Below are positions 18,428-63,700 of a stretch of 64,000 nt of DNA, in pieces (the stretch's first letter is position 1; each line of letters begins with the position of its first letter). This DNA comes from Clavelina lepadiformis (Eukaryota; Chordata; Ascidiacea; Aplousobranchia; Clavelinidae). The stretch is taken from positions 17,052,501-17,116,500 of the forward strand of contig NC_135247.1 of assembly GCF_947623445.1 (NCBI RefSeq), given 5' to 3'. The translations under genes were made by a program, and so were the position numbers. The notes beneath the pieces were generated by a model. It was not told the DNA's origin. It saw only the letters and a list, made by a program, of their open reading frames with translations, and made no database searches.

Positions 18428-19167
18428 ATGAAAACTCTCGTCTTGCTCGAAACTTTGTTGCTAGTTACTGCCTTCGCTGATTGCTACATCCTGAAACAAC
18501 ATTTTGGCGAGAGTGATTACCAAGATTGGAATGGCTGGCGATCCCGTCACCTGGCACCTTTCGGATCGCAACAGAAAGAGTCCGACGTGGCTTTGAAGCC
18601 ACAAGACAAACGCCAACATTGGTCGGTAAAGCTTTCTCCTGGAGGCAAACGGAGTGGCTTTACGGATGTTGTTCAAACGCAGCATGAAAGAAACCCAGGT
18701 GTGGAAATTCTGGAAGAGAGAATGAAGACGAAAGAGGAGGCTCGCGATCAAGATCAATATCCTATGATGTTGCAAATTCTTCAGAAAATACTTGACGTAA
18801 GTGCAGGAAACAATTTGTAGTTTCCCAAACCTCGATTGTGCAATAGGCCTAATAGCTAGTTTCAGTCATTTATTTTTACTGAAATCTTTATAATTTTTGA
18901 ATAGATATTTTAATCTAAATTCAAAGTTTTCGAGAGTATGAGATTTTTCTTTCGATGGTTTGCGTTCAGCGTTAAAGTCGTGCAAAATGTCAAAAAATTT
19001 AAACAAGAAATTTAAACTTTTCACCATTGTGAGCGAATACAAGAGTAACATTTAACTTATTTTTTTCATGGAAGGAAACGAAAAACTACGGTGAACTTCA
19101 GACCGATCCCGAGGATTTTTCACGGTTCAGTTACGACAACCAACCGCAAAAATCTTCCCATTACTAG
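18428..19167 (+). CDS. GNRH: Gonadotropin-releasing hormone precursor (single peptide)
   Basis: Neuropeptide precursor. Exon 1 is 18428-18796 (donor GAC|GTAAGT, phase 0). Exon 2 is 19075-19167 (acceptor ttttcatggaag), reading ETKNYGELQTDPEDFSRF and onward to TAG, for 153 aa in all. Residues 1-19 are a hydrophobic signal peptide (MKTLVLLETLLLVTAFADC). After an approximately 40-residue spacer comes KPQDKR, then QHWSVKLSPG (63-72), Gly73 as amide donor and Lys-Arg (74-75). This is the standard arrangement for release of pGlu-HWSVKLSPG-amide. The remaining 78 residues correspond to a GnRH-associated peptide without a second hormone copy. Positions 1-4 and 9-10 keep the chordate GnRH pattern and positions 5-8 (VKLS) vary, as in other tunicate forms. 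Reported ascidian genes that I recall mostly carry three copies, so one copy is notable. Exon 1 read through its donor would stop at 18820, giving a 130-aa form with the same hormone. Confidence 0.93.
18614..18652 (+). other. Mature GnRH decapeptide with amidation and cleavage signal
   Basis: Encodes QHWSVKLSPG followed by GKR. It is preceded by the dibasic KR at 18608-18613. N-terminal Gln would cyclise to pyroglutamate, and Gly after Pro-Gly gives the C-terminal amide. Confidence 0.95.
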
Positions 19168-20839: not shown

Positions 20840-23800
20840 ATGTTAGCACGAAGCAGCAGTTTTGTTCCTTGCTTTTTTGCTGTGGCAGTCTTTCTAGTTA
20901 AAGGTAAGTTGGCATGTTAGTTTCAAGAAACAATTCTTTCCTCTTTGTCAATCAACTGTTGCTTTCTGAAACTGATCTGGTGAATACTCTAGACATATAA
21001 TTAGACCATTTCCATACGTAGGCATTTTATACTACTGTGGTGTTAATAATTTCTCGATTTTCCAAATGTCTGTGTGCTAGCTATATAGAGAGAGTGTGAT
21101 TCGAAGCTTAGACAGCGGAACGTACTTCACTAAATGTACCAATCCAACAAAGATTCGATCCATCATTGGGAATTAGGCAGTCGTTGCAGTTCATAAGCAT
21201 GTACATTGCACAGTACTTTTGTTATTTAGCCCAATGTCCGACAAGGAACGAGACAATAGCACGCCACGTTGGAAGGTTTCCTTGCCGGAAGTCCTGCACT
21301 CCAGGCGACTCAAGATGCAAAGGGACAAGGGTGTGCACTTGTGACCATGAGTGCGGTTACTCCTGTATAAAATTTGGTAAGTAATACCATATACTGACTG
21401 AGTATATTTATGTATACCATTTCACAGTACACCTGGAGAAGTAAGCTTATGCTTGCGAAAGCTCGTGTACTAAAATATAAATAAAGATAACCTTCATAGT
21501 GTCAAACTATATCCAGTTTTTTATTTTACTTTAATATTCGGTTGCCACGGTTCAGACAACATCAACTTTGTAGACAATATTCTGAGTTGGTGTTACAGTA
21601 GGCTGCTGTATGCAGTGGTTAACGGACAATTAAGGCAACTCGAACTTTACGTATAACTATATACGAATACAGCAGGTTCCATCTTGTTCCAAACGATTGA
21701 CACAAGCTGCTGTCTACGTTTATTATGTCTGTATTCAGTGTTTATTGTATTCTGGCACAGGGTTGACTTAGGCCATTCCACAGCAATAGTAGCATAGCTT
21801 GTAGGAAAAATAACGCCTTGAGGATAACGTTTTAGTTAAGCGGTTTTTATTGGTAGGAAATCGTGATAGCGTTTGTGTTATGGTGGTACGTCCATTATAA
21901 AGAAGATAAAAATATCTTATCAGAAAACTTTTGCCCGCTCCCCCCGGCTATACCAAATATGGAAAATGTTTTCATCTATCGTGGGAACACCAATCCTTCA
22001 CTCGTACCGAAGACAACTAACGAATTTCGGTACGACGATATGGCTGAATACGTGTGCGCACCGGGATATTCAAAGGAAAACACAATTCCGCATTTTTGCC
22101 ACGGAAGACGAGGTTGGACTGGAACCACTAATTGTGTCCGTAAGTAAAAATATCTTTTATTTTGATTAGAAATATCATATCTACGGGTTTACGTGCATTA
22201 TAGGCAATTACATCAAACCCATTAATGGGTAGTCGACGAAGCAGCATGAGACAACTGCCAAACCTGTTGCATAGCAAAAACGTTATAGACCTATCTATAT
22301 GCGGAGAGTGTTTTGACACCAAAACTATTACATTGGTTTTGCAAATAATTTCACATGATCTTTGATCCTTTCAACATGTTGAAGGATGTTATACTTGCAG
22401 AGATCTGTCCGAATGAGCAGAACATTCCAACAGATGTTGTGACAAGCGTTCAGTGCGGTACGTCGTGCAAAACTGATGACGATTGCAACGAAAGCAGACG
22501 ATGCTTCTGTGACGGTCTCTGTGGTCGGACCTGTGTAAGCGAAGGTACGGTTATGTCAGTACTGTATTGGCATTAAGCTGTACGGGCATAGTACGCTTGA
22601 CATCAGGCTGGCATTTGTAAAAATTCTTTGCAAATTTTTTTTAAAAAATTTGTTTTACTTCTACAGTGACGTCATGTGTTGTCCCGTCGGGTCTCGGAGC
22701 ATCGCTGATTACGTCACCACCAGATGCGGCAACGAGAGCAGTTGGGGAATCGATGACGTACCGGTGTCGTGGAAGAGAGAGACTGCTGGGAGGGGCAGAG
22801 GGCGAAAAATCGGTTACGTGCTTGATGGATGGAAGATGGAGTGATCAACCTCCGGCTTGCGTTGGTAAGATGACGACGAAAATTGATAACAGAAAGAGTA
22901 GATACCAGATTTGCGAAAGTAGATCCAAGGTTCTGTGACGTCAGCTATACATGTTAGGGTATAAAAAGTAAAAAGAGAATGCCTCTGTACAATTTGTTTT
23001 TGTTTACCAATGTGCGGAAATGGGACAGATTGATGTTCAACATATTTTGTGAATTTGGTAGAATGACTTATATCTGCCACTTACGATTGCGAATAAGTTT
23101 AAAGTTACACGACAAAGGAAAAAAACTTGAATTATATTTTTTTTAGATTTAGAACGCAGTTACATACAAGCTTTTGACAACATTAATCACGTGGTTTACT
23201 TTCTTTTTGATCTCGCGTATGACGTAGACGATACGTCACTAAGAAATTCAGTAGAGTTTTCCTTAAATCTTGTTCGAAGGGTAAGCAGGTTTTACTATGA
23301 TGACGCATAATAAATAAGCAAACAATTAACCCTAAACGTGGTGATAACTGCTAAAAGCACTGTAGGCTAATTCCTTGAATGTGATTTATGTGAGCTTTTT
23401 CTTTAATTTGTACATTTTTGCAGTTCGCTGAAAACAGCACAGGTGGTTTTAGCTGTGGTGTTATTATTTTTGCATCAAGAGCGAAAATTATCCTAGACCC
23501 ATCTGGATCACAACAAACACCAGATGACGTAATTGAGTTGCTCAAATCAATTCCAAAGAATAGAGGTATATCTTCTAATATACTTGTTATGCAGCATTTT
23601 GCTAAATAAATCAGCAGGATTTTTATCGACGGAACCCTACTCGTGTAAGGGAAATAGAAATGAACCTTTCGTATAAGTGTCTGCATGCATTGAAAGAGGT
23701 GGTATATTTTTCATTGGTTCTGTAAGTTGCCTAGTATTTTGTCTTCTGTCAAAAGCTTCCACGCAGCCTTTACTTGGGATGGAGAGGTATACAAGTGCTT

Positions 23801-26800
23801 CTTTGCTCCTACTTAAAGAACTCATGATGTTGTCCAGCTCTCAAAGTGCAAGCAAAAATCACGGGTCGTATGTCCTATTATTTACAAACGGTAAAGAAAA
23901 CGTGGGGTAACTTTAAATGCATGCATTAGTTGTTTGGTTTCAAAACGTTACTACTAACAACATAATCAGCTCGTTGTGTTCACAACATTTCGTGTTGATT
24001 TGCAAAGGAAAACACGGCATGGGCTCTCCACCGGGTCACGAAGTGGTTTCGATAAGCAGGAGCCGGGATAAGCCGGAGGTAATTACTCGCAATCGATCGC
24101 AACAATTCGGTTTCAACGTCAAACTTGTTGTTGTCGTTGCGCTTGATCGGAAGTATATGAATCGTTTTATTTGCTGCAATTCGCCAACGACCTAGCTAAT
24201 GATGTAATTGTTGAAAAGAAACAAACAATGGGAAACTTTTATTGCAGTTTTTCTTGATAACATCTTGTACTCACTGCATGGAATCGTCGGACATCAATGA
24301 GGAATTTTTAATGCTGGCACAAGATAACCCAGAAAATATCTATTTTCTGGACAACCATTACGAAATCGACGACGTCATTGATAATATAACGGACGCAAGA
24401 ATTGGTAAAAAAGTTCTGTCCTAAGCGGATTTTTCTTGAAATTGTTAAACTTCGGAAATTATTCTTGAATTATTTTGCAGATTTCTCCGTCTGTGGTCAA
24501 GCTGGCGATATAGGTAGCGCCAGAGAGCAAACCAGACTGGACAGAATCATTGGTGGCTCAGACGCCACAGAACGATCTTGGCCTTGGCAAGGTGCCATTA
24601 CCTTGTACAACGAGAATGTTATAAAGGTACGTTGCCTCTGCTCACGTAAAGCTTTCAAAGCAATCTCGATTATATTATAGTGTTTGCCGGAGTTGTTACA
24701 ACACGAGTCAGAGACTTTATTTTGCAAAGACTTGACTTGATTCGAGTCACTTTTCACGAAACTACATAAATCACTTGACATGACTCGAGTCGGTTCTTGT
24801 TGATTATGTTTTCGGTATCAAGGCAAAAAGAATTTTTTGTTACTTAAAAAGAAGTCTGTTTCTCTACAAAGGCGTTCGAGGAAGCAAAACAAAGCAAATT
24901 TAAAAAAATTCCAAACGTTTCTTGATGACAGTAACGGTATTTTGACTTTTTTTTTCATGGCTTAGCTTCAGATATCAATTGGTTTAATTGGTTTCACACA
25001 AGTCCATTGATTCGACAAATGATTCGACTTGACTTAAGTCACTTTTTCCAAATGTTTCGACTTGAGTTTGATTACTTGTTTACAACTCTGCTGTTTGCTT
25101 TTAAGACCTACGCAGACACCAACTTTTTTGGTGGAGCAACCCTGATCAGTAATCGCTTTGTTTTGACTGCGGCCCACTTATTTGTAACATTAAGTGGCGC
25201 ATACGACGGATGGCAACAGGATGTGGTGGTTACGTTAGGTTTGTTATGAACGTTTTACCAAATTTTACAAATTTACAAATCGTTTTACAAATTACCGTTC
25301 GCTTTTCTGAATGTCTTTCCGGGTTTTCATCTTATATTATGTCGTCCAGGTCTACACAAACGTCCGATGCACGGTGGAGACCGGCTTCCATCGGTCGTCA
25401 AAGTCTTTCGAGCTAGAAATGTGATTGAGCACGAATTATTCACCATGGAAAGATACGATTACGATGTGGCGCTGGTTTGCAAAAGTTCTTATAGTTGTAA
25501 TAGATTTGTTCTAAATTATTACCGTCGATTTCAGATGATTTATTCTTACACCCTGTCGATGTTTCGGGGTCACCAGTTAAACGTGTACTTTCTTCATGTA
25601 ATTTTAATTGGCTAATCTTTTCTGGACATTAATAAATTCTTATAGATTTCTATTAAAACTATGATCTGTCCAACCTACTAAATAGTTACTTGAAATGACA
25701 TCACGACTTCAACGCCATCTGTTGGTACAGATTGAGCTTGGAGACGAGATAAAACAAGTCGGCGATGTTTGGGAAACAACATCCAACGAGGGTTGGGTCA
25801 CATACACGGCCTTCATCAGGCCAGTGTGTCTGCCTTGCATGGGAGATAGCTGGCTGGAAAGAGTCTTCACGAATTTCCAACCTGAGTTACCAATTGGAAA
25901 TCTAACTCAAGAAGAATGTAGAATAAGAGGTAGGATAACTATATTTTTCAGCTATAAGATATATGTAAGTTATTATATTCAGATATATACTGTATGTAGT
26001 GATATAGTTGATCATTGTGAATCAAAATGGTATTTACAAACTAAACCATATAGAAGAAGCTTTTTAAGGGAAGTTTCTTCTTTTTAAGGTGACATTTTGC
26101 TTGAACGTAAACCACGAAAGAAAAAACCGTTAGCTGTGGTCACTGGATTCGGTCACACTTCCCCACTTTTGGTAAGTCATGCAAGTGAAGCTAGACCTTC
26201 TCTCTACCTCAGACAAGGATTGCTAAAACTGGAAACAGATGAGCGGTAAATGCAAGTCACAGCTTCTACAGGAGTCCTAGCTTAATAGTCAATAACAAAG
26301 CTTAGCAGAGTAAAATGTTGCTGCTGTAAAATAAATTTTAATACATATACTTTGAAAGTAAAGTTGCTTATTGAGATTACAATCAAATTATTTCTTTCCT
26401 CTGTGAATAATTGCAGTCCCTTCAAAATTCAAAGTCTACAATCGACGTCAAGTTTATTGAATTTCTTATTAGCCAAATTGTAGAGAGTGGTGTTTACGGT
26501 TTCAGATGCAGGATAGTTGCAAACGATATTATTGACTGGTCTGTTCCACCTGGGAAACTTTACACGGAACGTATGCTTTGTGCTGTAAGTGCCTTCTACT
26601 ACAGAACTATTGATGCTTGCATTGGCGATACAGGAGGACCTTTTGTGAAAGAGGTGGGAATAACGTAGGCTACTGTAGAATGTTATCTCGCCATTTGACG
26701 ATTGTTGACTGAAAAAGCAATAGAATAAATTTTGTAGATCTCAACTGCCAAAAAGTAGGAATTTTTTAATCTTTGTTCACTATGACGAGACATTCCACAT

Positions 26801-26975
26801 TTTGCAGATATACCATGAGCAGACAGGAAAGAGCTTCTGGATGCAGATTGGGCTCGTTAGCTGGGGCTGGGGTTGTGGACAGGAATATCGTCAAGACGGG
26901 ATACTTCACCAGTTTCCTGGTTATTACACGAACGTTTTGCGAATGATGTCATGGATTAAAAAACGTTATTCTTAA
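20840..26975 (+). CDS. Complement factor B/C2-like protein, catalytic Ser replaced by Thr
   Basis: Secreted mosaic protein of 827 aa. Exons: 20840-20903, 21230-21376, 21924-22139, 22401-22544, 22667-22864, 23147-23280, 23424-23565, 23756-23890, 24008-24078, 24248-24404, 24481-24626, 25106-25238, 25350-25474, 25731-25929, 26089-26245, 26506-26653 and 26808-26975. Order: signal peptide (MLARSSSFVPCFFAVAVFLV), 8-Cys WAP-like module, CCP, second WAP-like module, CCP, vWA, trypsin-like domain. Each of the first four modules is one phase 1-1 exon. Factor B forms the C3 convertase. Here the activation site is RIIGG, His is in LTAAH, Asp in YDYDVAL, and the pocket Asp (DACIGD) and SWGWG are present, but the nucleophile motif reads GDTGGP. 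The vWA metal site reads DLAYD instead of DxSxS, and TNG instead of TDG. The gene has intact frames and splice sites, so it looks expressed but catalytically altered. A second in-frame splice path exists between 26171 and 26417. Confidence 0.85.
24680..25098. mobile_element. hAT MITE, ACTCGAGTC family, inside a protease intron
   Basis: The element occupies about 24688-25090. Its ends are CGGAGTTGTTACAACACGAG and, inverted, CAGAGTTGTAAACAAGTAAT. The flanks gtgtttgc (24680-24687) and ctgtttgc (25091-25098) are an 8-bp duplication with one mismatch. It carries GACTCGAGTC/GACTTGACT motifs shared with 15025-15235. It ends 15 bases before the acceptor AG of exon 12 of the factor B-like gene. Confidence 0.75.
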
Positions 26976-42800: not shown

Positions 42801-43912
42801 TATAGGTTTCTGATGGCAGGTTAAAAAATTTTCATCCCCATTCGGGGAAACAGCCCCACAGTCCAAAGATCCGATCTTAATCAGCCAACTCCAACCTACC
42901 GAGATAAACTCAAAAGAATTACACAAATAATTAATCAACAATTGAACACACAAACAATTATTGCCAGAAAATTATGGTGCAAAAACATAATTAGGATGTT
43001 CTACATAACAAAAGATGCAAATACGTGATGAGCGTATAGATATAAAAATTAACCAAAGCTGCATGCACCAAGTATTATCTGCGTAGAAAGTAAAATAGAG
43101 ATCCAAAATGAGTAAGCAATTATACAATGAATCGAAGGTATTTTTCACAACTGTTAAGCTCCCATGCCAACGTAACAAAAACATGCATTTTTAAAAGCAC
43201 GCTTATGTTACCCTCAGATCTGGGACGGCATCAACATTTCTTTGAGAACAAAGTCCCTTATTTTCAGCATCAGCACAATTTACCACACCCAGTGTAATAA
43301 CTGGGCACCATTCTACAGACAATGGAATAGGTATTTTTAGTTGAATTTTCTTAACTATGTGTATAAAAGCTATTAAAATGATACCATACCTAACTATGGG
43401 CATATATGCATACAATATAAATTTATACTATTAATTATCCAAGCATAACCAATAATTCTTTTTCAATTTTTACAAACTTTTTAGGTGTGTAAATGCATTA
43501 ACTGTTATTAAACAAACCTGCTACATCCTTAGCAAGAGCTTTAAAAGTTGGGGCAAATTCTTGGCAATGACCACACCAGTCTATGTAGTATTCAATTAAC
43601 CACAAGTTGGAGCTGAGTACAAACCATTTAGAAATCATTAACGATTTCCATATATTTATATCGATATTCAGTGTATTGTACATAGATAAGACAAAGCAGA
43701 CAAGATTAATAATTGACATATACCTAAAGCAACACTTACAATTGTGGATCACAATATACGTACCTGTTTGCCAAAACTGGAAGGAGGCTGTTTCCATTGA
43801 ATATGGTGACATTATCAGTGGAATTATACAATCCAGTAGCACTTGTGTAGGAAAATTGGCCCAAAAAGAGTGAAAAAGATACAATGTTAAGTAATAAAGT
43901 TTTATGACACAT
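36868..43912 (-). CDS. QSOX: Quiescin sulfhydryl oxidase
   Basis: Oxidises protein thiols to disulfides in the secretory pathway and passes electrons via FAD to oxygen. Proposed exons (minus strand): 43912-43764, 43612-43518, 43312-43212, 41939-41891, 41676-41565, 41424-41298, 41046-40889, 40669-40520, 40367-40238, 39962-39840, 39619-39448, 39400-39229, 38930-38699, 38225-37461 and 37188-36868, giving 951 aa. The start [18 protein letters not shown] is a signal peptide. The first thioredoxin domain has WCGHC. Residues of the second thioredoxin-like domain follow, then [14 protein letters not shown], and the Erv/ALR domain with [20 protein letters not shown] and LCASC. A 255-residue acidic, Ser/Asp-rich exon then leads to a juxtamembrane segment, a C-terminal membrane helix and a basic cytoplasmic tail. 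Two junctions are uncertain: 41565/41424 (an alternative pair adds a few residues) and the weak donor at 39448. The exon 13 end at GAG|GTTATA was chosen by phase. Confidence 0.9.
41940..43211. other. Long intron 3 of QSOX
   Basis: About 1.27 kb with no recognisable exon. Open frames on the minus strand here have no thioredoxin-like content. Confidence 0.4.
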
Positions 43913-44261
43913 CGCTCCACGAAACCCCTTAACCTAAGCCCTTTCTAAAAATTGACATTGCATGATTTTATACATACACAAATTTATGCAACTTTATCTC
44001 CTCAAAACACCACAGAAGCTTTATTATGCAATTACTGGCAAAGTATTCGTGCATAAACAACAAATTTGGTGTAAAATAATGACAGACATCTCATCTCATT
44101 TTTTAACGTATTTTTAAACCAAAAACCATCCTTATGACAAGATGATTCAGCATATTCATTGAACAAAAATATTCAGAAGTCTACAGAAACAAAGGAAATG
44201 AAACTAATTCACAACACATAGTTCATAATATAAGTAGATCATTGAACAAAACAAATAGGAG

Positions 44262-44276: not shown

Positions 44277-44573
44277 TCATTTCTCCGTGCTTTCAGTAAA
44301 CTGAACAACTTCTTTTTCCATTTCTTGAATCAAGTCTTTATCCTTTGACATGGCATAGATGGTATATCCATACACGGACGCAACAATCCCCATGATACCT
44401 AATCCAAGTAGGTTATTTTTGTAGGTGAATTTTTGACGAAACCTTTGAAGTTGATCTTGGTTGTATTTATCGATCAACCGACGTTGAGCTTGTGTTAAAT
44501 GATCTCCTGCTAAATCCACCCTCTTCATCCTCGGAAAATCGGAGTCAAGATTAGGCACACGGGGAGCCGACAT
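44277..44573 (-). CDS. COA3: Cytochrome c oxidase assembly factor 3
   Basis: Small mitochondrial inner-membrane protein that stabilises newly made COX1 during complex IV assembly (family knowledge). It is 98 aa in one exon. The predicted helix NNLLGLGIMGIVASVYGYT lies at about 53-71, preceded by a basic matrix-facing part (RRLIDKYNQDQLQRFRQK) and followed by YAMSKDKDL, then a charged tail. The GLGI...VYGYT.Y core and the size match the COA3/CCDC56 family. The stop is followed within about 10 bases by AATAAA. The QSOX start lies 365 bases downstream on the same strand. Confidence 0.85.
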   Translation of the reverse strand: MSAPRVPNLDSDFPRMKRVDLAGDHLTQAQRRLIDKYNQDQLQRFRQKFTYKNNLLGLGIMGIVASVYGYTIYAMSKDKDLIQEMEKEVVQFTESTEK

Positions 44574-50500: not shown

Positions 50501-53500
50501 TTGAACAGTTATTGGACGTAATCTTACCACTGCGCTTTGACAAAGCCACATTTATTTTGGTCAATTGAGTTCGGGATGTTTGCCTAATAACAGCAATTAC
50601 GTCTCTATGGTTACGAGTGGCGGCCGTTCTTAATGTTGGTAGATTAAATAAACAACGTCGCCCATATTAAATTTAAACTTTTCGCGTTTATGTAAAGAAT
50701 TGAGAAGAAACTAAATCGGCTGTTTTCGTAGCAAAATTTGTTTTAGGGGTCAAAGTTTATCAACACACGGCATCAGCTATGATGTTTGTCAATCGCTCAA
50801 CAGTTGGTTAAGCCGCTTTTTGTTGTCACGACGTTTGACCCAAATCAAAGGTCACAAATGACCGATTTACATCGGCTGGGCGCACGCAATAATTTGATCG
50901 AGATGGAACGATTTTGAAAATTTCCATAACTTGTCATGGTTATGACACAAATAATCAATCAATTAACTTCGCTCTTGTTGGATTGTTCTAATTCAAAGCT
51001 ACTGTTTTATGTTAGCTTACGTTTGCTTTTAATTATTGCTGAAAGTACTAAAATCAAGTTATATAAGTTACTTGTAAAGATGTAGTTAAAGTCCTGTTGA
51101 TCTTAATGTTATGTCATTCATAACCATGTAAAAGGTGTCCTGGTAAGTAAGGAGCTATATCTTTTTTGCTAACGTTTCGGCAACCCTTATTGTCACACTC
51201 ATTTGGACGATGATTTTATTCTAATATTGTTATTAACATTATGATAAGATTATAATATTTATATTCACAGCATTCTTGTTATATAAATTTCGTATCGTAA
51301 AAATAAAACATTATTGAAAACATTTTTGCAACCCTACGAATTTTAAGATTTATAATGATTCTAAGGCTATGAACAAAAACAATACACATACACAAATAAA
51401 TCGTAAAGACAACAGCCATCAATACCGCTAAACAATTTTTTCAAACAGTGCTAATCCGTTTGACAGTTTGTTTTGTTTGGCTCTTGTGTTCGCCATTAAG
51501 AGGATTATAACGACTATGACGAAACGACAATAAGTAAACACGACCACGCGCCACTGTCCACTTTCATAATCGCCTCTTGCCCATATAAGGTATTGTACTT
51601 ACCGACACAAGTTGGGGGCGAATTGTCCCAAAACAACTCGTTTGAGTCTGGCTGCTGCACGCATTCTAGAACCGATGACATTGTCGGATTTATGACGTAA
51701 CCTTTCGGACATTCATATTCGCATTTGGAGCCGAGATTGCTTCCGTTCGAACACGTAACCCTTTGGCCTCGGGAAGGTTCGAACACCAGTCCACAGGTTT
51801 TACCTGGAAAGGAACATTTAAGATGCAAGTTATGAATGGAATACCGTGTTAGTTGATGCGTTTGCAATTACTAGAATGTTTTCGGGTCTAAGAGAGACTT
51901 TTCATGAGAAAAACATTTCTGCTCGCCTTCAACGATGTCATCTGGTCCTTCACGCTTCACTGGAAGCCAAGTAAGGACATCGTTGTCATCTTTCGCACAT
52001 TCCAGTTTCATAATGGCTATACCCAATGGATTGTTGTCGTAGAAAGAACAAGTTGAACCTAGAAACGCTCCATTACTGCAGACCCACTCTCCATCCGGAA
52101 AAAATTCCTTAATGCCCTTGCATTTACTGCCTAACATTGTAACAAGTGTTTTGATTAATTTTTATTGAAGTGATAGTATGATGACCAAGAAAACAATTGT
52201 TTAGTATCGTTATATTTGCAATATGTCACAAGTATCAACGTTCAGTATTTTATTTTTCTTGGCGAGCATTTATACACTTGTTAATGAGGCTTTTTCAATA
52301 TGTTGCTGTCCGAGACATTTCGTGCTTTTTGCAATTCCCTTTGCTCAAGTTTTCTCATGAATGCTTCAGGTCAGAACATGACGTTTGATCGGTGGAGAGT
52401 TTAATTGCTGGCCCCAATGTTAATAGTTGATTCAGTTTACAACAGACTTCAATTTATTGCTTGTTCTTAATCTTAAGCGACGGCTCCAGTAAAGTATCAT
52501 ATATAGGCTTAGTGGTTAGGGATCATACATGGGAGGCAACTAAAACAATATTTTATATTTTATTTTAAATGTCGTTTTTGTAAGTAGGCCTAAAGATTTG
52601 AAAAGTTTTGCAAGATAAAGCAAAATTTCCGCATAAAAACACAGAACCTTTCCTCTTCCTTTTCCTGGATAGGGATACTAATTTATCCGGCTCTGTTGGA
52701 AAGGTTGCCTTGTCATCGTTCCAACATCCATCGACTTTTCTATGGCATCTGTTACTATGGCAACAGCAGTAACATGTCGACCCTGATTGAGACCCCTTGC
52801 ACACACCTGGATTCTGAGCAAAAATTTGCAGAATAATTTTTGCCATTTAGATTACCTGAAATAGTGTAATAAACTACTCTATGAATATCGGCAAGTTTGC
52901 AAAAGGCAACATGAAATTCAATTGATTTAACGCTTCCGAACGTTTAATTACTATTTATAAATCAAAATATTAAAACAGATTCGGCACGCAGCTTAAGTTG
53001 ACATTTGTTGATAAACGGCCCTTGGCATTGACAAACCTGTCGAAAGTTGTTCTCGCAAGCAAGTTTTTGTTTGCACCTCTTCGTAATGAGCATGCCATTC
53101 GGCCATGAATCCCGAAAACGAACCTCAGTCAGGCAAGATTTCTGTCAGAAGCAAACAATTTGTCGTAACAAAAAGTAGTTAGGAGTGCCAAGCGTAAAAG
53201 TTTTTTTTATTCCGTAGAAACAGTAAGCAACCGTTCACTTCGATCAAACAAAATTGTTATTATTAATAATTAAATTAAATTTTTATCAAACCAAGTCAAG
53301 TAATTTAATGAAAATTTCTTGGGTTATTTTCTTATAAGTTAAAAGAGGGTTTGGGTTTTAGCTTTTTTTAACAAAAATGTTTGTTTGCACTTTGCTAATT
53401 TCAAATATATCTCAAAATATTAGAAAAAAATTATAAACAAAATGCCAGATAAATACAATTTCTCATGGCAAATATCAGAGCTTCTCAACCGGGGACCATG

Positions 53501-60700: not shown

Positions 60701-63700
60701 TAAAGCAATTCTTAAACTTTCTTAATCAGGACAAATATTCGTCCACTGAGTAAGGCCTCAAGCCATTCCTCTATAATGAAGTTGTGTGGGACAATGACAT
60801 ACTGATATTTAAATAGAAAAACGAATAAAAAGAATACTAAAAACTTTAGTATTCACTCTACTCCCATCAAACTATTATGATCTACATGGCATAAAACAAG
60901 GATAAGGGGATAAAGAAGACAACAAGAAACTCGTTTCAGTCAAGATAGAATGTAAGAATATAACATAACAGAATTTGAGAAGCACTGATGTCATTTAGTC
61001 ACGAAAGACCTAATCCGGTAATACCTCGCCAGCATGTTACAGAATGCGAGGCAGTACGTAATAATTCAGTTAAACGTATGACCTTCGAACAACCATCTCA
61101 TAACACTCCACCTATCCATCAACAACCAAATGCTTACCTGGGAGGTCTGTTCGCAGAGAGACTTGAAGAGGTACCGTTAGGTACGTGAGTTGGCGAGGAT
61201 TCCTCGTGGATCCACGAGTTATCGACCGGTGGTGGCAGTGACGCGTGGACAGTCTGCACAATTGTAAGCATGTTTTAAGCTAAAGTTTGATGAATTAATG
61301 AAAGTGTTGGTCTGTTCAAAAGGGGCTTCACAGATCCGGTATTGCAGTATCATGCAAAATATAACCTTTGTGTTGATTTCAGACATTGCTTTTAGAGCAT
61401 CTTTGAGGCTGTGGTACATGGTCAACATCGTGTTTCGACGTTCTGCCTCGTCTGCAGATTCTTCCATCAAATCCGTCTAAAAAAATATCAAATACAATTA
61501 TAATTTGCGAGAAATGTCACACGTTCGACCATGTTTTAGATGTGATTTAGATTCATTTTGTGGAAACGTTAAGAGTTTTTCAGTATGAGCAACTATAAAA
61601 AATTTATTTACTCCATTTCCAGTTGAGTAAAGATGAGCAAGAACTTCTGTTTTGATGAATTCTTTTGTCTGCAAATAAGTCCTGGAGTTAATTGATTGAA
61701 ACTTATGTGAATAATACTTTTGAAAAAAAAAGAATAATAGAATTTTAAGGTACAGATTAATCTAAGCTAACTATTTTTCAGAATAAGAAACAACTGAATA
61801 CTTTGCTAATTACATCAAACATCGTAAAATCTAAAATCAAACTTTTTTAAGCTTGGAACAAAGCTTGGAACATCAGAATAAAACAATATTTTTAGCAAGG
61901 CAGGACACATTGGTACCTCGTTTATCATGATAGTCATGATTATCTTGGGAATGAGATCGCGAATGGTTTTGTTGACGATAGCCATGTAGCTGTCAACAAG
62001 GTTTCGAATCGTTTCAACTTGTCTCTCAAGTTGAGGATCAAGGGATGCGGCTGGACTGCCGCTGCTTTCTCCATCCTGTTGTATAAACAAACAAAGTTTG
62101 TTACAATCAATTAATTTAGTCTTTTGTATAAATTTACACCGGCATGGCTTTACAGTATGGCTAATTACGACTCCACTTGTATGATTCTTGTGGTTAAGGT
62201 CTATGCCAATAATAATCTTATCAAAAATATCTTTCTTCTTTTGCATCTCCTAAAATGCACTATTGGGTTTGGTCTTCGACAAAATATGAAAGGTATTTTC
62301 ATATAACATAGCCAGCAGCCACTAATACAAATATATGATAATACAATGTAAGGTGTAAGATATTCGTTTTCAAGCATTTGGCAAATGGAAAGTCATACAA
62401 AGTAAGTAACAAAATCTAGGAGTGTTATGTTACAGAAAACTGTTCTATGACAACACATAAGTCAATGTGTATTAGTACAAAGTAGAAGAAACACCAACCA
62501 CCGCTCATTTCACCTCCGTTATTATAAGGTTGATATTAAAAAAATATTAGATACACCAGGTACTAAAATTGAAATTTAAAAAAAAAAAACAGTTTAACAA
62601 AAGTTGACATGATAAAACACAATCAAAAATCTATTTGATTTTAAACATAAAATAAGTCAAAATAAACACGAAGTGATTGCAGGGGTTAAATTCATGCAGA
62701 TGGCAGCAAAATTACCCGTCTTTCTTTCTGCAACATTCAACATCATTGTCATGCAACAAAACATAATCATTTAGATCAATGTATTTATATAATGTCACTG
62801 TGTTACTGCTTTTACACAAAAATTATTGTTCTTTAAGTTGATTGTTGAAAATTTCAACAACCAACTTAAATTGATTGAAACAAACTTGAATTGACAATTA
62901 GCACTAGCAATAGCAACTCGAATTAGCATATTGAAATTAGCATTATTCTGACTTATTTTAAAAATTTAATTGTGTCTTCATTTTATCAATTGATAAATTT
63001 GAACAATAAACCAAATAAAATTTGCAGCAATCAACGGCAGACCCTATTAATTGAAAACTAAATAGCACTTCATAGCACTCCAGGTCAACGTCATTCTACA
63101 CTACAAGTCCACAACTTCCATGAACAATTTCACTGTTATGAAACATGCCGTTGCACTTGGACGGAATCAAATGTCAACCATAAATTATTTTCAAAACCTT
63201 TGCAATGTTTACAAAATCAAAAGTTTTATTATTAGGGCTTTTATTACTTTAAATCAATTCACAGCACAAACTAAGGATAAACGAAACCACAGAATTCTCA
63301 CAAACCTTAATCTCGGAAGTTCGCTCAGGATAGACACCAGCGCGTAGGAATGAAGCTTTCCAGCTATCAACAACGTCCTGTGTCTCCGCTGACAACTCTA
63401 GTTGCCTTAAAAATGTTTCATTTGGCCATGAATAGCATCACTACTTGTGCAAGGGACACAGTATGCTAACAAGTCTGACATGCTAACATTTGCTGATACA
63501 AAAACCATATTCTACGTTTGTACACATTTGCAAATACATTGCATTTTGTAAATAAGTGAATGCTTTTTAGGTATGTAGTTGAAAGGCATTGAATAGTATG
63601 AAACATGTTAGCTTAACATCAACTTTAATCACATTCATCAATCATTGATTAAAAATTAGATGTAAACATTTTTATTTTCATTATATCTTTCAAACTGAAC

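Follow-up and report, generated by a model that had tools for sequence, protein, structure and literature searches.

GnRH is a hormone that controls reproduction in vertebrates, in whose GnRH precursors the peptide directly follows the signal peptide. In the ascidian Ciona, Ci-GnRH-X stands alone in its precursor. Clavelina lepadiformis, the light-bulb sea squirt, is a colonial aplousobranch ascidian. The chordate GnRH consensus, as given in passages of reviews, consists of Gln-His-Trp-Ser at positions 1-4 and Pro-Gly at positions 9-10. According to the same kind of source, Ci-gnrh1 encodes tGnRH-3, -5 and -6, Ci-gnrh2 encodes tGnRH-4, -7 and -8, and in Halocynthia there are two GnRH peptides per gene; two reviews describe the GnRH genes of ascidians as encoding several copies in one precursor. 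The ascidian comparison set used here was a review table of 12 peptides (tGnRH-1 to -11 and Ci-GnRH-X).

In this study, we analysed a stretch of 64,000 nucleotides of chromosome 8 of C. lepadiformis (hereafter, the window) that most likely contains a working GnRH gene, the counterpart of Ciona gnrh2, encoding the single decapeptide QHWSVKLSPG and not three peptides (probability of about 0.7). Ciona tGnRH-8, -7 and -4, from Ci-gnrh2, and C. savignyi tGnRH-9, which we infer to be a gnrh2 product, share with this peptide the pattern QHWS....PG, Leu7 and a residue other than Gly at position 6. The identity is 8/10 for tGnRH-8, -7 and -9, six of these residues being the shared core, and 7/10 for tGnRH-4. 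Halocynthia tGnRH-10 (identity 7/10) and tGnRH-11 have the same core, but in the reviewed passages their residues 5-8 are YGFS and YGFL, instead of VKLS. The core at 1-4 and 9-10 is also common to Ci-GnRH-X, which, unlike the window decapeptide, is described as a partial antagonist of 16 residues extended beyond the Pro-Gly. Vertebrate GnRH1 precursors resemble the window gene in having a leader, one decapeptide, GKR and an associated peptide, whereas their residues 5-8 are YGLR and they lack the propeptide of about 40 residues that in the window precursor separates the leader from the KR and the peptide.

Structure and uniqueness of the chromosome 8 precursor

The features of the gene are provided in Table 1. 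Joining of 18428-18796 to 19075-19167 (+) gives a prepropeptide of 153 aa, with a 13-residue hydropathy maximum of 2.38 at residues 4-16, which on hydropathy qualifies as a secretory leader, and with 48 residues of the associated peptide encoded in exon 1, 3' of the GKR. The decapeptide conforms to the chordate consensus at residues 1-4 and 9-10, and it is preceded by a dibasic site and followed by Gly-Lys-Arg.

Table 1. Positions of the GnRH genes and receptor-type fragments of C. lepadiformis; positions without prefix refer to the window, and C4, C7 and C8 are chromosomes.
Feature	Position	Strand	Remark
Studied 64-kb window, assembly kaClaLepa1.1, chromosome 8	C8:17052501-17116500	+	
Coding exon 1 (123 codons), with leader, propeptide, KR, decapeptide, GKR and the beginning of the associated peptide	18428..18796	+	GC 0.461
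Hydrophobic leader, ~residues 1-19 MKTLVLLETLLLVTAFADC, presumed signal peptide	18428..18484	+	hydropathy only
Dibasic KR preceding decapeptide	18608..18613	+	reading frame
QHWSVKLSPG, predicted mature pGlu-HWSVKLSPG-amide	18614..18643 (C8:17071114)	+	reading frame
GKR amidation/cleavage signal	18644..18652	+	reading frame
Inferred phase-0 intron, GTAAGT...GGAAG	18797..19074	+	GC 0.295
Inferred coding exon 2, with the last 30 codons and the TAG stop, completing the associated peptide	19075..19167	+	GC 0.441
Second GnRH gene, 214 aa, coding part without intron	C7:16331462-16332103		
PR-QHWSYGMRPG-GKR, intact copy	C7:16331900 (L001:1501-1530)		
Putative relic copy QIGSYGYRPG-SK, upstream of two intact copies, in frame, without dibasic sites	L001:1306-1335		
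GnRH-receptor-type fragments, five loci	C4 ~4.97 (two, side by side, 4.964-4.977 Mb), 5.55, 5.62, 15.80 Mb		best solved-structure (PDB) match human GnRHR

The original prediction had described two exons in phase. In this regard, the GTAAGT donor and the AG acceptor (GT-AG) keep the frame in phase 0 across the 18796/19075 junction, but the frame also closes unspliced, at 18820, giving 130 aa with the decapeptide unchanged, and exon 2 is therefore less certain than exon 1; a two-exon structure with an intron at 18797-19074 is plausible and likely. The GC content of both exons exceeded that of the intron and flanks: only 4 of 529 flanking 369-nt windows reached the value of exon 1, and 8 of 393 flanking 93-nt windows that of exon 2. 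The motifs TATAAA (18315) and A[AT]TAAA (19655) were also seen, neither being evidence of function. It is very improbable that the gene is silent or decaying and makes no peptide, since the frame, the leader and both processing sites are intact and the GC content is coding-like, even though a gene on chromosome 7 shows that GnRH copies do decay in Clavelina.

Searches of the genome covered 209.06 Mb in 95 contigs, slightly less than the 210.1 Mb in 102 scaffolds given in the assembly paper (PMC10884593), and chance expectations were computed with the base composition of the window, for six frames and 209 Mb. On this basis QHWSxxxxPG was expected 0.29 times, and 7.7e-7 times when [KR]R was also required on its N-terminal side and G[KR][KR] on its C-terminal side. 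With a basic residue required downstream, the QHWS pattern gave 3 genome sites and its reversed control none, and the looser QHWxxxxxPG gave 10 sites versus 6 for its reversed control. Among these 10 sites, only the three with QHWS had R before and GKR after the peptide, the other seven being without them. A chance match of the GnRH pattern was thus ruled out by the expectation, the reversed controls and the processing sites. The precursor that had been predicted, from leader to associated peptide and with the core residues 1-4 and 9-10 conserved, agrees in frame, sites and chance expectation with these results.

When the window precursor was used as query, the genome gave no match except the window gene itself. 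It must be noted that the precursor was absent from the listing of the Pfam GnRH model (PF00446), which in a control also omitted 4 of 9 known tunicate peptides placed in the same flanks (tGnRH-1 and tGnRH-3 to -10); of the five listed, tGnRH-10 was above the cut-off and four were below. The chromosome 7 precursor scored 24.6 bits with this model (cut-off 18.5), and the genome-wide search with it gave no match and missed the chromosome 7 gene likewise, for which reason that search is uninformative. Two similarities of exon 1 were discarded, that to Defensin_propep (residues 1-14, E 0.0012, 19.5 bits, cut-off 23.6) as leader similarity and that to TRAF_BTBD17 (E 0.18, below the Pfam cut-off) as chance.

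The neighbouring genes of the window provided no synteny lead. The next gene downstream (20841-26975, +) has sushi-repeat ORFs and a trypsin-like stretch just below the Pfam cut-off, and by its look is a complement-like protease. Pfam matches were also found for a thioredoxin domain (43498-43941, -), COA3 (44277-44573, -), a sushi repeat (51514-51864, -) and a dynamin GED (61815-62246, -), and 3 of the 10 neighbouring ORFs tried had no Pfam match.

A second gene on chromosome 7, orthology and copy number

Two of the three QHWS sites of the genome fall in a single gene on chromosome 7. One of its intact peptides, QHWSYGMRPG, differs from human GnRH1 by one residue (Leu7 to Met) and has Arg8; the other, present as KR-QHWSKGYSPG-GKR, is identical to Ciona tGnRH-6. 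When the corresponding part of the protein was shuffled 20000 times, a single shuffle was at least as similar to the intact copies as QIGSYGYRPG, and this segment reads as a decayed third GnRH copy. BLASTP of the window precursor against that of chromosome 7 aligned them around the peptide only, with no convincing similarity elsewhere.

The original prediction that VKLS matches no tunicate GnRH was supported for the review table, where it is absent from residues 5-8 of all 12 ascidian peptides. The nearest in that table were tGnRH-8 (LALS), tGnRH-9 (NKLA) and tGnRH-7 (YALS), with BLOSUM62 sums over these residues of 8, 7 and 6, respectively. In addition, HWSVKL, HWSVK and Trp-Ser-Val-Lys had no record in the main texts of 5.39 million open-access papers, nor had HWSYGMRPG, HWSYGMR or its three-letter form. 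The passages available from some open-access papers naming both Clavelina and GnRH give no Clavelina GnRH. QHWSVKLSPG and QHWSYGMRPG are unreported members of the known GnRH family.

With respect to orthology, the window peptide has the gnrh2-type residues (Leu7 and not Gly6), a comparison that involves four variable residues only, and against this assignment Leu7 also occurs in human GnRH1. Ci-gnrh2 has three peptides per precursor and the window gene one, which lowers the gnrh2 claim and does not end it, because copy number varies among ascidians. Since one peptide of the chromosome 7 gene is exactly tGnRH-6, a product of Ci-gnrh1, and a relic third copy accompanies it, this gene fits gnrh1, and the window gene is left as the gnrh2 candidate. 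In the best reading, gnrh1 would thus correspond to the chromosome 7 gene and gnrh2 to the single-copy window gene, both assignments being drawn from the short decapeptides. A counterpart of Ci-GnRH-X, acting as an antagonist and not as an agonist, would also have a residue 6 other than Gly and be the sole peptide of its precursor; it is nevertheless improbable, considering that Ci-GnRH-X is extended C-terminally by six residues, whereas here GKR directly follows the Pro-Gly, and that residues 5-8 have no identity (NWWI versus VKLS).

As had been predicted, the precursor of the window holds a single decapeptide. No significant relic copies were found in it, either in ungapped comparisons, in which the best scores of the N and C parts were equalled in 10936 and 2704 of 20000 shuffles, or in gapped ones, in which 190 and 1698 of 3000 shuffles, respectively, did as well. 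The best gapped match, WRSRHLAPFG, was rejected as a relic for this reason (190/3000). The lack of recognised relics is what would be expected if the single copy were ancestral, inherited by Clavelina from a chordate ancestor with one peptide per precursor, and if the copies of Ciona gnrh2 were gained later. We regard this as rather unlikely, in attention to the ongoing copy loss in the sister gene of chromosome 7 and to the fact that a relic of longer divergence could be unrecognisable. Copy loss is the likelier cause of the single copy, because copy number varies among ascidians, as seen in the chromosome 7 gene and in Halocynthia. The loss in progress on chromosome 7 implies that copy number falls in this lineage, and since Halocynthia already has two peptides, one copy is a further step on a known series. 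The "vertebrate-like layout" noted in the original prediction consequently says little about ancestry, with a multi-copy gene in the same genome and, in the reviewed passages, two peptides per gene in Halocynthia; it is probably convergent.

Predicted processing, receptors and signalling

Standard neuropeptide processing predicts pGlu-HWSVKLSPG-amide as the product. The precursor would enter the secretory pathway, prohormone convertases would cut at the KR on both sides of the decapeptide, Gln1 would be cyclised to pGlu, and PAM would convert the trailing Gly to a C-terminal amide. The PAM/DBH domain (PF03712) had 29 genome matches, of which three were examined: an exon on chromosome 3 was PAM-type, and those on chromosomes 9 and 7 were rejected as PAM, being nearer to dopamine beta-hydroxylase (weakly for chromosome 7, E 0.0056). 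Many of the PF03712 copper monooxygenase matches, at least one of them nearer to dopamine beta-hydroxylase, lie at 14.28-17.08 Mb of chromosome 7, an apparent local expansion.

Fragments of GnRH-receptor type were found in the same genome at no fewer than five loci on chromosome 4. Human GnRHR outranked the vasopressin and oxytocin receptors, where these were listed, for the chromosome 4 fragments; for the first two loci this test is reciprocal and not independent, because they were found with human GnRHR as query. A further candidate match lies at 5.539 Mb of chromosome 4. The human GnRHR query also matched a single-exon receptor on chromosome 6 (E 6.7e-7).

The mature peptide may act on one of the chromosome 4 GnRH-receptor-type GPCRs, possibly as a cAMP-type agonist in the nerve cord or ganglion. 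In passages of reviews, Ciona tGnRH-4, -7 and -8 act via cAMP through Ci-GnRHR-2, and calcium is raised by tGnRH-6 only, which has Gly6. With Lys6 instead of Gly6, the window peptide would be expected to signal mainly via cAMP, like tGnRH-4, -7 and -8, and both intact chromosome 7 peptides, which keep Gly6, could also raise calcium. According to one paper, the larval nerve cord expresses Ci-gnrh2, whose peptides are able to activate receptors of muscle cells (PMC3407064), and another indicates that tail resorption at metamorphosis requires GnRH (PMC10962819, citing Hozumi 2020). The anatomy of the window gene, its uniqueness in the genome, the second gene and the receptor-type and PAM-type fragments are direct observations. 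The expression and splicing of the window gene, the processing of its precursor, its orthology, and the receptor and second messenger that its peptide would use are predictions.

Significance for GnRH evolution in ascidians

The two unreported decapeptides come from Aplousobranchia, a suborder absent from the table of 12 peptides, and the window gene is an exception to the multi-copy statement on ascidian GnRH genes found in two reviews. Together with the chromosome 7 relic, it shows GnRH copy number changing. Of the two genes, the one on chromosome 7 is the more unexpected, on account of its Arg8 peptide and its decayed copy, and QHWSYGMRPG makes the age of the Arg8 form testable. As a speculative proposal, of low probability at present, Clavelina would keep a single-copy gnrh2 and a gnrh1 whose QHWSYGMRPG and QIGSYGYRPG hold the Tyr5-Gly6-x-Arg8 of mammalian GnRH1. 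If this is true, Arg8 GnRH would predate vertebrates instead of having arisen within them, and the single-copy layouts of chordates would be reachable via repeated loss from multi-copy genes.
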